From: Paenibacillus sp. FSL M7-0420
GTDB taxonomy: Bacteria; Bacillota; Bacilli; Paenibacillales; Paenibacillaceae
Length of the DNA stretch: 64,000 nt
Reading direction: 5' to 3'
NCBI RefSeq assembly: GCF_038002345.1
Contig: NZ_JBBOCJ010000001.1
Location: forward strand, 6,758,001 to 6,822,000
The position numbers and the translations under genes were made by a program. Positions 7,165-62,290 of this stretch are shown here, in pieces (within the stretch, counting starts at the first letter, position 1; every line of letters starts with the position of its first letter). Below the pieces are notes generated by a model. It searched no databases, was not told where the DNA came from, and saw only the letters and a program-made list of their open reading frames with translations.

Positions 7165-8499
7165 TCAACCCGACTTCGGAATATCCGAAATCGCAATCTC
7201 GAAATCCACGGATATGGTCCCCCGGATCACTTGCTGCTCGCTGTCTAATTTGGCGGATAAGTCTACGCTTTGCATGATCACATCGTCGCCTTTGTATCGC
7301 TTGCGGGATAGATAGTAGGTCGCCAACTCGCTGCAGAATTGGGTGTAGTTTTTTTCATGAATGAACTTGTTGTGCTCACCAAAGATACTATAAACCTTCC
7401 GGTAAGGAATGTAGTCCGCAAATCTCTGTATCACATGATCAACGTCCCACTTATACTGATTAGCCAACTGAACGATCTTGAACAGCGCCATAAAAATCTC
7501 GTTCTCACGGGTTGAAATATACTCTATATATTCTTCCAGCACCTCAATCTGCCCGTCCATTAAGCGGTAAAGGTACGTATTAGCCGTTCCCCATTCTATA
7601 TATTGAGCCTTAATACGCCTTGCTTCTTCGTCATCTTCCCGTATCCAGCTGTGATCCATATAGAGTGGTACCATATCCAATGCGGATGTATAGTCCCCCA
7701 TCTCTTCATAAGTAGACGACCTCATAAGCTGAGCATGTAATATATAAGTATATAGCGGCCTTTTATATAACTTATGATCTCTATGCCTACGGCCTGATTC
7801 ACCATGAAGGTCATAATGGATGGAAGCCACTCGGAGCATTTCTTCTACAACCTCAGATACCTTGTCCCATTTCTGAAGCGCGAGGTAGATATCCGCCAAC
7901 TGCTTCAGCGCATCCAGCTGATTGACTTCATCCAGCTTATCGACATAATTCTCTAATAAAGTAGCAGCGATTAGATTTTCCTGTGGATCATCGCCAAGAT
8001 TAATCAGGAAGAGCCGATATTGACAGAGTGCCAGGCGTTCGGAATGCTGATATTTCTCGCTGGCTCCCACATTTTCGTAGATTAATGCTGCGGCCTGCCA
8101 GTTTTTCTGCTCAAATAACTCCTCCGCAACCTCGAACAGCAGCGGTGCATACAGCAGATTATCCAGTAAATTCTGCGCCACCCGCTCAATACAATCCAGA
8201 CGCGATAACGCCGCGCATTGCAGCAGGAACGGCCGTAAGCGCCGCCAGGTCGGCGTCGAATCGTATAAACATTCATCCACATACTGACTGTAAAAGTAGT
8301 CCTCCGGCAGCCCCATCCCGTTGGTCACGCGGGTCAGGTGATTCATCGCCAAGGCCTGCTGGCCTTTCATGACCCGGCTGAGTGTGCCGGAATGAATTCC
8401 GCTGGCAATTGCAAACTGATTAATAGACAGTTTATGTTTTGTAAGATACGCCGCTATCTCGTCTCGAATTTTGACTGTATGCTCCACAGCATCTACCAC
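7165..8499 (-). CDS. RNPP/AloR-like HTH-TPR peptide receptor, orphan, C-terminus replaced
   Basis: The 444-residue protein has an N-terminal XRE-type helix-turn-helix (about residues 22-70, SINQFAIASGIHSGTLSRVM) and a long helical TPR-like region. This is the RNPP layout of cytoplasmic receptors for re-imported signalling peptides. It is a close paralogue of the 9034-10425 gene over nearly all its length (both have GMGL, TPTWRRLRPF or APTWRRLRPF, and WGTANTYLYRL or WGKANTYLYRL). The last 25 or so residues differ: after KLDSEQQVIRG the shared CVDLFEQNR-type end is absent. No pre-peptide frame overlaps or follows the stop. A GTG start at 8499 or at 8487 is possible behind AGAGGTGG. It is probably an orphan or damaged receptor. 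Confidence 0.85.
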   Translation of the reverse strand: MVDAVEHTVKIRDEIAAYLTKHKLSINQFAIASGIHSGTLSRVMKGQQALAMNHLTRVTNGMGLPEDYFYSQYVDECLYDSTPTWRRLRPFLLQCAALSRLDCIERVAQNLLDNLLYAPLLFEVAEELFEQKNWQAAALIYENVGASEKYQHSERLALCQYRLFLINLGDDPQENLIAATLLENYVDKLDEVNQLDALKQLADIYLALQKWDKVSEVVEEMLRVASIHYDLHGESGRRHRDHKLYKRPLYTYILHAQLMRSSTYEEMGDYTSALDMVPLYMDHSWIREDDEEARRIKAQYIEWGTANTYLYRLMDGQIEVLEEYIEYISTRENEIFMALFKIVQLANQYKWDVDHVIQRFADYIPYRKVYSIFGEHNKFIHEKNYTQFCSELATYYLSRKRYKGDDVIMQSVDLSAKLDSEQQVIRGTISVDFEIAISDIPKSG

Positions 8500-8563: not shown

Positions 8564-8743
8564 TTACGCAGGTGGACGCTTGTTCATCCGATAGACATTA
8601 TCGTAGGCATTGAGCAGCTCATCCAGTACTACGGATTGCCGCAAGACCTCTGGGTGATTGAAACCGCCATATTGAATATGTAATGTATAAAGCTTACTCC
8701 TAGCTTGCTCTATACGAATTCTAACGATTGCTGGACTATGCAT
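8564..8743 (-). CDS. Spo0E-family aspartyl-phosphate phosphatase (59 residues)
   Basis: ATG 8743 lies behind a perfect AAGGAGG with 10-nt spacing. The small helical-hairpin protein has IEQARSKLYTLHIQYGG and then the family signature SVVLDELLN (compare SQELD in Spo0E). Such proteins remove phosphate from Spo0A~P and so oppose sporulation. A TATAAT box lies 30 bp upstream. It sits between two RNPP receptor genes on the same strand, downstream of the receptor/pre-peptide pair. A second Spo0E-like gene sits beside the other receptor at 62.4 kb. This suggests that peptide sensing is coupled to the phosphorelay. Confidence 0.85.
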   Translation of the reverse strand: MHSPAIVRIRIEQARSKLYTLHIQYGGFNHPEVLRQSVVLDELLNAYDNVYRMNKRPPA

Positions 8744-8869
8744 GGGAATCCCGCCTCCTTATGCAACATTATAGATATTTATGTAAAACTACAAAATAAT
8801 GGACTGATTGCATTATCTGTTAAAGTGAATATATTGACAAAGCTCTGACAAGGTAGAAGTTGTCCATAA

Positions 8870-8901
8870 AAAAGACGCCCCTGCATTAGCAGAAGACGCC
8901 T
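8870..8901 (-). terminator. Terminator after the pre-peptide gene
   Basis: On the minus strand an imperfect stem (GGCGTCTTCTGC with GCAGGGGCGTC, some G-U pairs) is followed by six T. It separates the receptor/pre-peptide pair from the Spo0E-like gene. Confidence 0.6.
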
Positions 8902-8933
8902 ACAATGATACTGTTATAACTGTAGCCGCTTAT

Positions 8934-9071
8934 TCAGCCGCCACCTGGGCCGTGCCCCATTGTTTGAATGCTTTGTTGTTGTAAAGATTTGTCCATCATA
9001 TGTGGTTCAGGAATAGTAATAAATATAATAAAACTAACCGTTGCTAGCAATAATAGGAGTTTTCTTTTCAT
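8934..9071 (-). CDS. Secreted signalling pre-propeptide (45 residues, AloP/Phr-like)
   Basis: ATG 9071 to TGA 8934 encodes a peptide that begins MKRKLLLL, followed by a hydrophobic core (ATVSFIIFITI). This is an export signal. A polar linker (PEPHMMDKSLQQQS) and a glycine-rich end, TMGHGPGGG, come next. The first 38 bp overlap the 3' end of the receptor gene in another frame. This is how PapR, Phr, AimP and AloP pre-peptides are placed. As I recall, mature AloP peptides of Paenibacillus polymyxa carry an HG-x-GG pattern, which GHGPGG would fit. Exact processing cannot be read from DNA. An AAAGGGG ribosome binding site lies about 12 nt upstream, and a terminator follows. Confidence 0.8.
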   Translation of the reverse strand: MKRKLLLLLATVSFIIFITIPEPHMMDKSLQQQSIQTMGHGPGGG

Positions 9072-10425
9072 TTGTATCCCGCACCCCTTTTATTAAGATT
9101 TTATATTGTCTCTGCTCATCTTCCCCGGCAATATGCCTGTTCTGCTCGAAGAGATCAACACATTTGAAGATGATACTCTCATTATTAATTTTAGATGATG
9201 ATTCCAAACTTTGCAGTATATATCTAATGCCTTCACTTCGCTTATTCCTCAAATAATAGACTCCCAGTTCAACAAGAAATCTGGCATGCTGATCCGCTTT
9301 AATCTGATGATTGTACACTCCGAATTCTGTGAGTTGTAACCTGTACGGCGTATAATCAGAGAAACGTTCTAAAATATAGTCTATATTCCAGTTATATAGG
9401 TTTGCGGATTTGACGATATAATATAAAGCTGTGAAAATTTCTCCTTGTTGCGTGGATATATAATCAACATAATCAGTTAATGCCTCTACTTGGCCATCCA
9501 GTAAGCGATATAAATAAGTATTGGCCTTGCCCCATTCCTGAAATTGCGCCACAGTCCTCTTCGTTTCCTCATTTTCTTCATGTATCCAATTTACGTCGGT
9601 ATATAAAGGTACAATTTCAAGTGCCGCTTTGTAATCCCCACATTCTTCGTATGCATTTGAACGCATTAGATGAGCATACAATATATAAAAGCAAAGAGGT
9701 CTTTCACCGCTATTCACTGCTCCTTTATATTTCGGGTTACAATAAAGATCATATTGAATTGTTGCAATTCGTAGTAGTTCAAGAGCAAGCTCATTTACTT
9801 TATTCCACAATTGTAATGAATAGTAGACATGCATCAAATGCTTCAACCCATCCAGCTGATCCGCCTCGTTCAGGCGCGGGATGTAGCTCTCAAACAGGGT
9901 GGCTGCGCGCAGGTTCGTGCTCTGGTCATCACCCAGTGCAATCTGGAACAGGCGGTATTGGCAGGTGGCCAACCGTTCGGAATACTGATATTTCTCGCTG
10001 GCGCTTACATTCTCATAGAGCAGTGCAGCCGCCGGCCAGTGGCCCTGCTGGAACAAGCCTTCCGCCACTTCAAACAGCATGGGTACATAAGTCAGATTAT
10101 CCAGCAGGTTCTCCACCAGACGCTCGATACAATCGGTACGCCCCAGTTCCGCACACTTCACAATGAACGGGCGAAGCCGCCGCCAGGTCGGTGCCGAATA
10201 ATAGAAACATTCCTCCACATACAAGCTGTAAAAAAAATCCTCGCTAAGCCCCATTCCTGCAGTGATTAACTCCAGATGGCTCATGGCAATAGGCTGATGA
10301 CCATTAATAATCCGGCTCAGTGTCCCGGAATTGATACCGGAGCTTATGGCGAAGTGATTAATAGACATCTCATGCCGGGTTAAATAATCTGCAAGCTGGT
10401 CTCGAATCATGACTGCAGGCTTCAA
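9034..10425 (-). CDS. RNPP/AloR-like HTH-TPR peptide receptor with its own pre-peptide
   Basis: A TTG start at 10425 follows GGGAGGTGGTG. The 463-residue protein has an N-terminal helix-turn-helix (SINHFAISSGINSGTLSRII, about residues 20-40) and a C-terminal TPR-like superhelix. It should bind DNA in the cytoplasm under control of a small imported peptide. It is paralogous to the 7165-8499 gene and more distantly to the 60884-62290 gene. All three share the YVDECF/YVEECF-type segment after the HTH and the SERLA/SERMA...QYR(L/I)F segment. The pre-peptide gene starts inside its last codons, and a Spo0E-like gene follows further on. Regulated targets are unknown. Confidence 0.88.
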   Translation of the reverse strand: MKPAVMIRDQLADYLTRHEMSINHFAISSGINSGTLSRIINGHQPIAMSHLELITAGMGLSEDFFYSLYVEECFYYSAPTWRRLRPFIVKCAELGRTDCIERLVENLLDNLTYVPMLFEVAEGLFQQGHWPAAALLYENVSASEKYQYSERLATCQYRLFQIALGDDQSTNLRAATLFESYIPRLNEADQLDGLKHLMHVYYSLQLWNKVNELALELLRIATIQYDLYCNPKYKGAVNSGERPLCFYILYAHLMRSNAYEECGDYKAALEIVPLYTDVNWIHEENEETKRTVAQFQEWGKANTYLYRLLDGQVEALTDYVDYISTQQGEIFTALYYIVKSANLYNWNIDYILERFSDYTPYRLQLTEFGVYNHQIKADQHARFLVELGVYYLRNKRSEGIRYILQSLESSSKINNESIIFKCVDLFEQNRHIAGEDEQRQYKILIKGVRDTNEKKTPIIASNG

Positions 10426-10606
10426 AGCAACACCACCTCCCGCATTCCATTATTTAGAACTTTATGTTTATATCTGTAATAGTAGGGGATCGAATTTGAA
10501 AATTCAATAGAATAGAGTCAAATAAAACAACTATATCGCGAAAGTGTGAAGAATTCGAAACAGTTTGGCAACGGGCTGGCCGAACCTTACGATAAGGGGA
10601 GAGTTT

Positions 10607-10996
10607 ATGAGAAAAATAAGCATCATTTCAATTTCATTGATAATATTGTTTGTTTTAATATATGTTTTAGTCAGACCACATCCTGAGATTGTTAGCGTCA
10701 GTCTTATTTCCGAAACAACGGAAATTACTTACACTGATATTGAAAGCATTCGAATATTCGACGATGCTATAAGAACGGTGAAAAAAGTACGCGGGGCTGT
10801 TGATGTGGGTCCCCCCACATATCGAATGAATGTTACTTACGCGGATAGCGAAGTTGTGAAATCCAGCCTTTATTTAGATTTTAAATCCAAAAGTGGATTC
10901 TTGATTAAAGATAGTAATAGCGAAAAAATGTTGAAATTAAAAGATCGCAGTTCTAAAGAATTAACAGATTTATTGAGTAAATTAAGTACAAACTAA
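10607..10996 (+). CDS. Membrane-anchored small protein, YhfM-like domain possible
   Basis: The start is ATG 10607 behind AAGGGGAG. An N-terminal hydrophobic segment (about residues 4-24, IISISLIILFVLIYVLV) serves as anchor or uncleaved signal. The exported remainder has about 105 residues: DIESIRIFDDAIRTVKKVRG, a GPPTYRMNV strand, and SKELTDLL near the end. The pattern resembles the YhfM-like domain of Bacillus proteins, for which no function is known. That is a weak similarity judged by eye. The base composition is AT-rich. It is divergent from the receptor operon. Confidence 0.6.
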   Translation: MRKISIISISLIILFVLIYVLVRPHPEIVSVSLISETTEITYTDIESIRIFDDAIRTVKKVRGAVDVGPPTYRMNVTYADSEVVKSSLYLDFKSKSGFLIKDSNSEKMLKLKDRSSKELTDLLSKLSTN

Positions 10997-11059: not shown

Positions 11060-11677
11060 TTAGCCATACAACAGCCCCCACAGCTGAACTCCCATATAAA
11101 CGGCGATCCCCCAGATCAACAGGGCGGAAACGGTATTCAGCCCCTTCATGACCTTGCCGGAAGCATCCAGTCTGCCGAGCTGGCGGCCCGCTGCAGCAAG
11201 ACCCAGGAACCAGAACCAGGAGACGGTCACTGTGGCAGCCGCGAAGGTCCAGCGTACCGCCCCTTCGTATTGCAGTGAGCTGATCCCGATCACGCCCACC
11301 GTATCCAGAAGGGCATGCGGGTTCAGGAGGGACACAGACAGCGCATAAAGGATCTGTCCCTTCGCCGAGAGTCGGCCCGACTCATCCTTCGCCGGAGTAG
11401 AGCGCCAGATTCTCCAGCCCATGAAAGTCAGAAACAGAATGCCTGCCCCATATATAACAGGCGTGACCCAGCGCAGCGATAAAATGACCAAGGAGACTCC
11501 GCCGACTGCGGCAGCGATAAGCAGTGTGTCGCATACCGCTGCCGTCAGTACGACAGGCAGCACACTGCGGAATCTGGGATGCTGCGCCCCTTGATTGAAG
11601 ACGAATATGTTCTGTACGCCCAGCGGCAGAATCAGCCCGAAGGCCAGGATCATTCCATGTAGAATGGCCTGCACCAT
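11060..11677 (-). CDS. LysE/ArgO-family amino acid exporter
   Basis: The 205-residue protein has about six hydrophobic helices and the family N-terminus GLILPLGVQNIFVFNQG. LNPHALLDTVGVIG follows in the middle. The family exports basic amino acids such as arginine and lysine, but some members export other compounds. AAGGGGGAAAAGAA precedes ATG 11677. It is divergent from a MocR-type regulator, and paired LysE/MocR genes are frequent in Bacillales, so the regulator probably controls it. Confidence 0.9.
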   Translation of the reverse strand: MVQAILHGMILAFGLILPLGVQNIFVFNQGAQHPRFRSVLPVVLTAAVCDTLLIAAAVGGVSLVILSLRWVTPVIYGAGILFLTFMGWRIWRSTPAKDESGRLSAKGQILYALSVSLLNPHALLDTVGVIGISSLQYEGAVRWTFAAATVTVSWFWFLGLAAAGRQLGRLDASGKVMKGLNTVSALLIWGIAVYMGVQLWGLLYG

Positions 11678-60801: not shown

Positions 60802-60930
60802 TTAGAATTCCACTCCGTGTTCAACAGCAGTTAACCCTCTCGTCTTAGACTTCTGATCTGTTCCTATACCCGCAAGGATGAAGCTAAACAATACCAAAAC
60901 GCTGACCGTCATCAACAGTGATCTCTTCAT
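60802..60930 (-). CDS. Secreted signalling pre-propeptide (42 residues, AloP/Phr-like)
   Basis: ATG 60930, behind GGGAGGTGAGAGCGC, to TAA 60802. It encodes an export signal (MKRSLLMTVSVLVLFSFILA), a polar linker (GIGTDQKSKTRG) and the end LTAVEHGVEF. The first 47 bp overlap the 3' end of the receptor gene in another frame, as at 8934-9071. The C-terminal 5-8 residues are probably the signal, but the processing site cannot be read. It has a better ribosome binding site than the first pre-peptide gene. Confidence 0.78.
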   Translation of the reverse strand: MKRSLLMTVSVLVLFSFILAGIGTDQKSKTRGLTAVEHGVEF

Positions 60931-62290
60931 GCGCTCTCACCTCCCTGATGAGCTCCCGGTATGCATTCTGCTGGGTATCCGAGGCATAGTCTCTGTTCAG
61001 TTCAAATAAGGTTACACAGTTAATGAAGTCCTTGCCGCTGTTCAGTCTGATGGTCAGACGCAGGCAATGAATGATATAGTCTATTCCCTTGGCATACTGC
61101 TGGCGGGAGATATGATAGATCGCAATCTGATAATAGAGACGGTACACCCGGTCTACATTGATCGTATCCTGGAATTGTTCGAAGCGCAGCATCTCCCGGG
61201 AAAAGCGCGACATCACAGCATCAGCGGAGAACCCGAAGCGGTTGGCCGACTCCATAATGATTACCATGCCGGACAGAATCTCGCCGGGATGCTCGGACAA
61301 GAAAGCGATATAGGACGGCAATACAGAGATGTTGCCCATCAGAATCTCCAGCGTGAACCCGTTGGCCGTGGCAAACAGCTTGAAGCTGTCCACACTGCTG
61401 CGCCCCTCGTCATCCAGCATCTCGAACCATCCCAGGTCCGCATAGCCGGCGGTATATTTCTTGGCCTGCTCATATTCCCCCTGCTTCGTAAGCGCCGATG
61501 CCTTCAGCAGATAACCGTGCCCGTAATAGACCACCAGCGGGCGTTCCGCCTGAAAGGGCTCCCCTCTCCTCGCCTTGCTGCGGCGCAGCTCCTCGCGGTA
61601 GATTCCGCTTGCTAACGCCCTCAGCTCATCGGAGAATTTCTCCACATCCTTCCAGCGGTGCAGCGCGAAGCATACTTTCGCCAGCTTCAGCAGCCCGTCC
61701 AGCTGCATCTCCTCGGGAAGCAGCCCGCGGTAAGGCTCGAAGCTGATGACGGCGCGCAGCTTCTGCTCCATATCCACATCGGGAGTAGACTGCAAAGACA
61801 TGAAGATACGGTACTGGCTAATCGCCATACGCTCGGAATAGCTGTCTTGTTCATGGTCTACAATCAGCTTGTAGAATACGATGGACTCCTGTACTTTGCC
61901 GCTGCAGAATAGCCTCTCTGCCACCCTGTAGATGATATCCAGCGGCCGCTGATATTCCATAATCCGCCTTAAGACCTCTTCAATGCATTGCTGCTTGCCC
62001 ATCTCGGCACATTTAACCAGGAAGGGCTCGATACGGCGGCGGGAGATCCGCTCTTCACTGAAGCACTCATCCACATACAGCGGATACAGCCAGCCTTCCG
62101 GGAAGCCGAAGGCCCGGATCATGGCATCGAGCTGTCCCAACGAGATGGGCTTCGGCGGATTGCCGTGAAGAATGGCGCTGAGACTGCCGCGGTTCAGGCC
62201 GGAGACTTTGGCAAATGAGGCAAGATTATGGCCCGAGCGGGACAGACTCTTCTCGATTTCCGTACGTAATGTAGTCAGCTTCGCCTCCAC
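60884..62290 (-). CDS. RNPP/AloR-like HTH-TPR peptide receptor
   Basis: A GTG start at 62290 follows GGGAGGTG. The 468-residue protein has an N-terminal helix-turn-helix (NLASFAKVSGLNRGSLSAIL) and a long TPR-like region (SERMAISQYRIF, HRWKDVEKFSDELRALA, INCVTLFELNRDYAS). It is a more distant paralogue of the two receptors at 7.2-10.4 kb. Its pre-peptide gene begins inside its own 3' end, and a Spo0E-like gene lies just upstream on the same strand. Confidence 0.87.
   Translation of the reverse strand: MEAKLTTLRTEIEKSLSRSGHNLASFAKVSGLNRGSLSAILHGNPPKPISLGQLDAMIRAFGFPEGWLYPLYVDECFSEERISRRRIEPFLVKCAEMGKQQCIEEVLRRIMEYQRPLDIIYRVAERLFCSGKVQESIVFYKLIVDHEQDSYSERMAISQYRIFMSLQSTPDVDMEQKLRAVISFEPYRGLLPEEMQLDGLLKLAKVCFALHRWKDVEKFSDELRALASGIYREELRRSKARRGEPFQAERPLVVYYGHGYLLKASALTKQGEYEQAKKYTAGYADLGWFEMLDDEGRSSVDSFKLFATANGFTLEILMGNISVLPSYIAFLSEHPGEILSGMVIIMESANRFGFSADAVMSRFSREMLRFEQFQDTINVDRVYRLYYQIAIYHISRQQYAKGIDYIIHCLRLTIRLNSGKDFINCVTLFELNRDYASDTQQNAYRELIREVRAHEEITVDDGQRFGIV

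Follow-up and report, generated by a model that had tools for sequence, protein, structure and literature searches.

A Paenibacillus AloR/AloP-type locus with a putatively exchangeable signal and sensor cassette

The stretch of 64,000 nucleotides from Paenibacillus sp. FSL M7-0420 that was analysed here (the window) carries what is most probably an AloR/AloP pair at an Alo13-type locus, in which the signal and the sensor half of the receptor appear to have been exchanged repeatedly, as one cassette, on a fixed output (probability about 0.85). This reading draws on four direct observations: the gene anatomy, its conservation, the mosaic structure of the locus and a conflict between trees. The AloR/AloP kind itself is known; the new element is the mosaic, and comparison of relatives suggests that the signal and the sensing half are exchanged jointly.

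Gene content and identity of the locus

The aloR-type receptor gene (9034..10425, minus strand) starts with TTG and encodes 463 amino acids according to the ORF listing. The AlphaFold2 model of its product (pLDDT 86.9, pTM 0.76, alignment of 10 sequences) has a predicted HTH at residues ~7-57, followed by all-helical TPR-like repeats up to residue ~454. The Pfam HTH and TPR models matched the receptor only below their cut-offs, no useful receptor family was found in Pfam, NCBIfam or PHROGs, and a PDB sequence search returned no clear relative and no RRNPP match. Foldseek with the model returned TPR proteins in general at low TM-scores, with PlcR-PapR7 at rank 7 (E 1.6e-3, TM 0.23/0.33) and RapH at rank 32.

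The aloP-type pre-peptide gene (8934..9071, minus strand) starts with ATG inside the receptor gene, overlaps its last 38 nt (9034..9071, minus strand) and encodes the 45-residue product MKRKLLLLLATVSFIIFITIPEPHMMDKSLQQQSIQTMGHGPGGG, which fits the AloP size class (32-50 residues) and the overlapping place. A sequence-only reading had proposed a 45-codon frame starting within the 3' end of the receptor gene, with an export signal and the tail GHGPGG. The frame was found as described, and its product has a signal-like, hydrophobic N-terminus by a simple ten-residue hydrophobicity window; the glycine-rich tail is also present, with one further glycine (GHGPGGG). The same reading held such a frame to be too short for standard gene callers, which does not always hold: in P. 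polymyxa ATCC 842, a 43-residue frame in the same place on a plasmid has been annotated as a hypothetical protein. Codons 39-45 (8937..8957, minus strand) encode the putative mature signal GHGPGGG, at the position of the published SHGRGG.

Downstream of aloP, on the same strand, are an intrinsic terminator with a stem-loop and T run (8873..8901; -16.4 kcal/mol, z -4.1), a conserved block (8768..8788), a spo0E-like gene encoding 59 residues (8564..8743; Pfam PF09388, E 5.9e-12), which is the presumed target, and a second, aloR14-like receptor gene (7165..8499) that, by alignment, has a shorter C-terminal part. The second receptor gene falls in a 19-row clade, and no peptide gene was seen in the frames read 3' of it. 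The Alo13-type order is thus present, with a spo0E-like gene directly downstream and then an orphan aloR14-like receptor. Among the 20 relatives' loci taken for comparison (one genome per species), the second receptor was kept in 18 and a spo0E-like frame was found in 16 by the search expression used; in one of the remaining four (G031), spo0E was recovered with a looser expression. The upstream neighbour is a LysE-type exporter gene (11060..11677, minus strand; Pfam PF01810, E 3.7e-25), and a similar C-terminus was judged by eye to be present in 11 of the 20 loci. An ORF encoding 143 residues (10565-10996, plus strand), divergently oriented to aloR and hydrophobic over a stretch close to its start, had no family match in family profile searches.

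According to the accessible text of Voichek et al. (2020; PMC7425212), the Alo systems of P. polymyxa ATCC 842 pair an HTH-TPR receptor with a gene for an exported peptide that follows the receptor gene directly or overlaps it, and an aloP that overlaps the aloR 3' end was already described there. Alo13 has the C-terminal hexapeptide SHGRGG and an adjoining spo0E-like gene, followed by aloR14 with a degenerate peptide; in a B. subtilis reporter, the spo0E promoter is activated by AloR13 and switched off by the peptide (same text of PMC7425212). The Alo13-Alo14 region is like the window in its receptor, small peptide gene, spo0E-like gene, second receptor, and HG core with a glycine tail, whereas its signal is SHGRGG and that of the window would be GHGPGGG.

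The comparison supports the proposal that the pair belongs to this published family. The host lies within the Paenibacillaceae (its nearest gyrA among 18 compared is that of G088), and a plasmid-borne receptor of P. polymyxa ATCC 842 is 39% identical to the window's receptor over all 463 residues; the overlap is alike and the gene order is that of Alo13-Alo14. Orthology with P. polymyxa AloR13 is putative and rests on this gene order. A search for DNA coding for SHGRGG or near variants gave matches in 14 of 100 congeners; 12 of the loci were read, and no match proved to be an aloP. The tail had also been called a new signal variant, a claim that holds weakly: the hexamer GHGPGG occurs in two relatives (L049 and L050) as well, and the 7-mer GHGPGGG occurs once among 52 HG-tailed peptides, as do most of their tails.

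The block 5' of the spo0E-like gene is a candidate AloR-controlled promoter. The window copy reads TTTTACATAAATATCTATAAT, and TTTTACATAAANATCTATAAT was found exactly in 14 of 17 aligned loci and as a variant in L081, L083 and L084, with a ribosome-binding site after it. The block ends in TATAAT and has no good -35, as would be expected of an activated promoter. At up to two mismatches, the window block is the sole site in its own genome, with one control match; as a guess from conservation, it may be the site that AloR binds. A shared AloR operator, TTTTACATAAANNTCTAWAAT, was also considered and rejected: it occurs once in the genome, with one control match, and a related word 5' of aloR exceeds the control only in the clade of this locus. 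No general operator is therefore claimed.

The receptor searches gave 13 matches in the window's own genome (itself included), matches in 36 of 60 relatives (E <= 0.001) and in 24 of 100 congeners (E <= 1e-170), and 35 plasmid records, 25 of them from Paenibacillus. The window itself holds a second AloR/AloP pair, with a receptor of 468 residues (60884-62290, minus strand) and the peptide MKRSLLMTVSVLVLFSFILAGIGTDQKSKTRGLTAVEHGVEF (60802-60930, minus strand) overlapping by 47 nt. In the Brevibacillus phage SecTim467 (L104), a receptor 27.6% identical to AloR is overlapped by a small annotated ORF that lacks a hydrophobic start, and a putative Spo0E gene lies just upstream. Nine viral contigs in IMG/VR (L106-L114) carry AloR relatives at 39-51% identity; a small hydrophobic frame is present at the aloR end in six (L107, L110-L114), L106 and L108 end at that point, and none was seen in L109.

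Conservation and coding constraint of the small frame

The sequence-only reading had named comparison of the overlap among relatives as one of its checks. An intact aloP frame is present at the same place in all 19 syntenic loci (loci with both receptors, the window included), which confirms that the 45-codon frame in the 3' end of aloR is genuine and not a chance frame. The overlap in these loci is 38 nt, except in G028 (32 nt); G101 and G086 have GTG at the aloP start position, with an ATG in the same frame six bases further upstream.

In a wider set of 64 aloR loci (L001-L011 and L016-L068, some of them near-duplicates; two half-length receptors and two duplicates of L048/L049, together L012-L015, were omitted), a script that filtered for place, charge and a hydrophobic stretch found aloP in 55, giving 52 distinct peptides. 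Exactly 38 nt of overlap were found in 45 of the 55, HG within the last 12 residues in 52, and HGxG in 50. Nine loci lacked a scripted aloP (L005, L007, L009, L027, L036, L037, L040, L047 and L055); of these, L055 does have an intact peptide frame, lost to the charge filter, and in L040 the frame is displaced.

Among eight close orthologues, pN/pS was 0.11 in the GHGxG codons, 0.35 in the last ten codons, 0.90 in the linker and 1.46 in codons 13-22 of the signal part. The whole frame has a dN/dS of 0.65, and the two shifted frames 0.32 and 1.72. Coding constraint on aloP is therefore clear only in the tail, where the mature signal should lie.

A possible translation signal was found inside the receptor gene. 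The word GAGGTN, ending ten bases before the aloP start, is present in 37 of the 45 loci with a 38-nt overlap and looks like a Shine-Dalgarno word coded within aloR, where it reads Glu-Val in the receptor frame. Elsewhere in 19 aloR genes, GAG makes up 343 of 718 Glu codons; no probability is attached to the pattern, because the loci are related. In the window copy, GGGGTG stands at this position (9082..9087, minus strand) in place of the usual GAGGTG.

Mosaic structure of the receptor gene

The front halves of the receptor (residues 1-190) are at least 95% identical in 22 of the 171 pairs formed by 19 loci, and in 15 of these 22 pairs residues 200-463 are at most 75% identical and the signals are different. 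The reverse mosaic (back half at least 95%, front half at most 75%) was found in none of the 171 pairs. One such pair is G115/G114, whose receptors are 100% identical over residues 1-190 and 48% identical over residues 200-463, with different signals; divergence is 0.45 inside the segment found by the two-border scan described below and 0.03 outside it, and the spo0E neighbours are near-identical.

Sliding identity to the window was computed for 13 syntenic loci. G087, G113, G115 and G114 are 80-98% identical to it over the 5' flank and aloR as far as ~9864; between ~9864 and ~8904 the identity is 44-69%, and from spo0E on it is 76-98%, with a drop to 59-88% in much of aloR14 in G087. Synonymous divergence follows the same course: pS between these four genomes and the window is 0.13-0.39 over the aloR codons up to 187 and 0.75-0.88 over the later ones, 0.57-0.82 in aloP and 0.27-0.54 in aloR14. 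The converse was seen for G084, G063 and G095, with pS of 0.26-0.44 in the back half and 0.66-0.68 in aloR14. A patch of aloR14 (7704-7943) is 71-82% identical to G088 and G101 and 92-95% identical to G113, G115 and G114, and may be a separate recombination patch.

The borders were located by a two-border scan run on every pairing of seven close genomes (21 pairs). In all 15 pairs with different signals, the scan returned a segment from aloR codon 191-202 to window position 8785-8880, with a divergence of 0.39-0.45 inside and 0.03-0.17 outside; in the six pairs of the same signal type this segment was never returned, and other segments were found instead. The putative cassette thus comprises aloR from codon ~195, aloP and the terminator (8785..9851, minus strand), with borders that vary by pair (9818-9851 and 8785-8880). 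G087 shares with G113 and G115 a block of low divergence (~10570-7900; 0.06-0.08 against 0.28-0.29 outside), and larger blocks therefore seem to move as well.

In another scan, of seven pairs, a border lying 264-271 codons ahead of the aloR stop codon was found in G115/G114, G112/G086, G034/G028, G031/G028 and G015/G028, and a like border at another locus in L030/L033; it was absent from G015/G031, which have a signal tail in common. Against the window, no border shows for the five most distant loci (G015, G031, G036, G034 and G028), because their front halves are near saturation (pS 0.50-0.86).

Trees of the two halves are in conflict. A gyrA tree of 19 genomes (G034 absent) unites G000, G088, G113, G114, G115, G087 and G101 (100/99), and the tree of receptor residues 1-190 contains the identical seven-genome clade (100/98). 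In the tree of residues 200-463 this clade is missing and receptors group by signal, across species: eight with GHGxG(G/A) tails (100/100), three with SHGIGG (100/100) beside SHGVGGS receptors of another locus, and GHGHGGY with GHGSGGY (100/99). AU tests were made on quick trees with 37 of 59 rows (22 omitted), and the groups were named after the trees had been seen. They rejected the species clade on the back-half data (p 1e-6) and the signal clade on the front-half data (p 7e-27); when the front half was constrained to type B (with its SHGVGGS neighbours), p was 0.003, and with type C (with L062/L063) it was only 0.044.

A control receptor locus in the same seven genomes (locus Z, signal GHGTGDG or GHGTGNG) is 95-99% identical in the front and 94-98% in the back half in all 21 pairs. 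It has no drop, and the jump between front and back is therefore not something that AloR shows in general. An intermediate pattern, between mosaic and control, is seen at locus Y, which has tandem copies; locus X, represented by four of five loci (L146 absent) with three of the four rows beginning late, was not used for counts. The tandem aloR copies of locus Y, one of them without an HG-tailed aloP, were observed in five genomes (L005, L150, L151, L152 and L155).

Proposed mechanism, alternatives and meaning

The export, maturation, regulatory action and dialect specificity of the peptide are proposed to be as follows. AloP would be translated from the start codon within aloR, exported via its signal sequence and cut outside the cell to a C-terminal peptide, probably GHGPGGG, which would be re-imported and bind to the TPR half of the receptor. 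On the model of Alo13, AloR without bound peptide would activate the spo0E-like promoter and the peptide would shut it off, so that high density would mean less Spo0E-type phosphatase and favour sporulation. Related bacteria would have traded the sensor half (from codon ~195) and aloP time and again, keeping the DNA-binding half, the target promoter and the flanking genes in place, so that the signal dialect would change and the output remain fixed.

Two alternatives concern the peptide. If the small frame were a chance overlap frame, or a relic without a signal product, the whole-frame dN/dS of 0.65, which is not low, and the unusual ribosome-binding word of the window copy would fit. This reading was rejected and is now hardly credible, on the conservation of the frame in 19 of 19 loci, the constraint on its tail codons and the 38-nt overlap common to 45 of 55 loci; in the available part of PMC7425212, mass spectrometry is moreover reported to have detected fragments of nine of 14 AloP peptides in P. 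polymyxa. A short, glycine-rich and probably exported peptide could also be a bacteriocin-like or membrane-active product that carries no signal to AloR. Such a role is extremely improbable for a peptide that is tied to aloR in 55 of 64 loci, changes together with the sensor half, and matches in position and HG core the SHGRGG signal, whose activity is published.

The mosaic could also have arisen without exchange of the back half. Fast evolution in place, under positive selection for new signal specificity, would agree with the pN/pS of 1.46 in aloP codons 13-22 and with the lower identity to the window of back halves (79-87%) than of front halves (89-96%) among orthologues with the same cassette. 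Selection of this kind is opposed by the jump in synonymous divergence (from 0.13-0.39 to 0.75-0.88), the sharp border with divergence falling again beyond aloP, the clustering of back halves across species by signal type, and the absence of a drop at locus Z; on these grounds positive selection as the sole cause was rejected, and is considered very unlikely. A mosaic of the same appearance would also result if the back half were vertically inherited and old, as trans-species alleles, and gene conversion or sweeps had kept the front half and flanks alike. This history is unlikely, as the front-half tree agrees with gyrA, and the low divergence of the front half extends to the 5' flank, to spo0E and to most of aloR14. 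Repeated exchange of the signal and sensor half as one cassette is the preferred explanation.

Rap receptors are not known to have a DNA-binding HTH, and act on response regulators; the window's receptor differs, with HTH helices predicted at residues 7-57 of the model. The peptide of ComQXPA is modified by ComQ, and the ComQXPA sensor is a membrane kinase, whereas AloR is an HTH/TPR regulator. The cassette pattern resembles the pherotype polymorphism of ComQXPA in Bacillus subtilis, in which, according to the text available for PMC4008528, a variable signal gene and the signal-binding part of the sensor place strains in communication groups. Rap-Phr of Bacillus is like Alo in its many paralogous peptide-receptor pairs and its horizontal transfer, but in the accessible portion of Even-Tov et al. 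(2016; PMC5199041) a search for divergence of Rap via recombination between different Rap homologues is reported to have found no evidence of it, whereas AloR of the window looks recombinant. ComRS of streptococci has an RRNPP-type sensor with distinct pherotypes, and the available text of PMC8605241 makes no mention of a mosaic or swap; nor does that of PMC7425212, where "recombin" occurs once, in the reference list. Literature searches and the accessible text of PMC10075063, PMC9765709, PMC7425212 and PMC8605241, a body of sources in which subscription papers and preprints are mostly not represented, yielded no report of cassette exchange in AloR.

The pair alone would be one more Alo system; the greater interest lies in the mosaic. 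It is an old question how signal and receptor can change specificity together without a non-working intermediate step, and natural chimeras for it are at hand in G115/G114, with an identical front half and a different back half and signal. From the sequence comparisons it seems likely that AloR receptors change their signal in this way: with a recombination border fixed at about codon 195, the sensor half and aloP could be replaced together under an unchanged DNA-binding half, operator and target gene, and would have been so in several lineages and at two or more loci. If the cassette reading is true, closely related species would use one sporulation switch with mutually deaf dialects.
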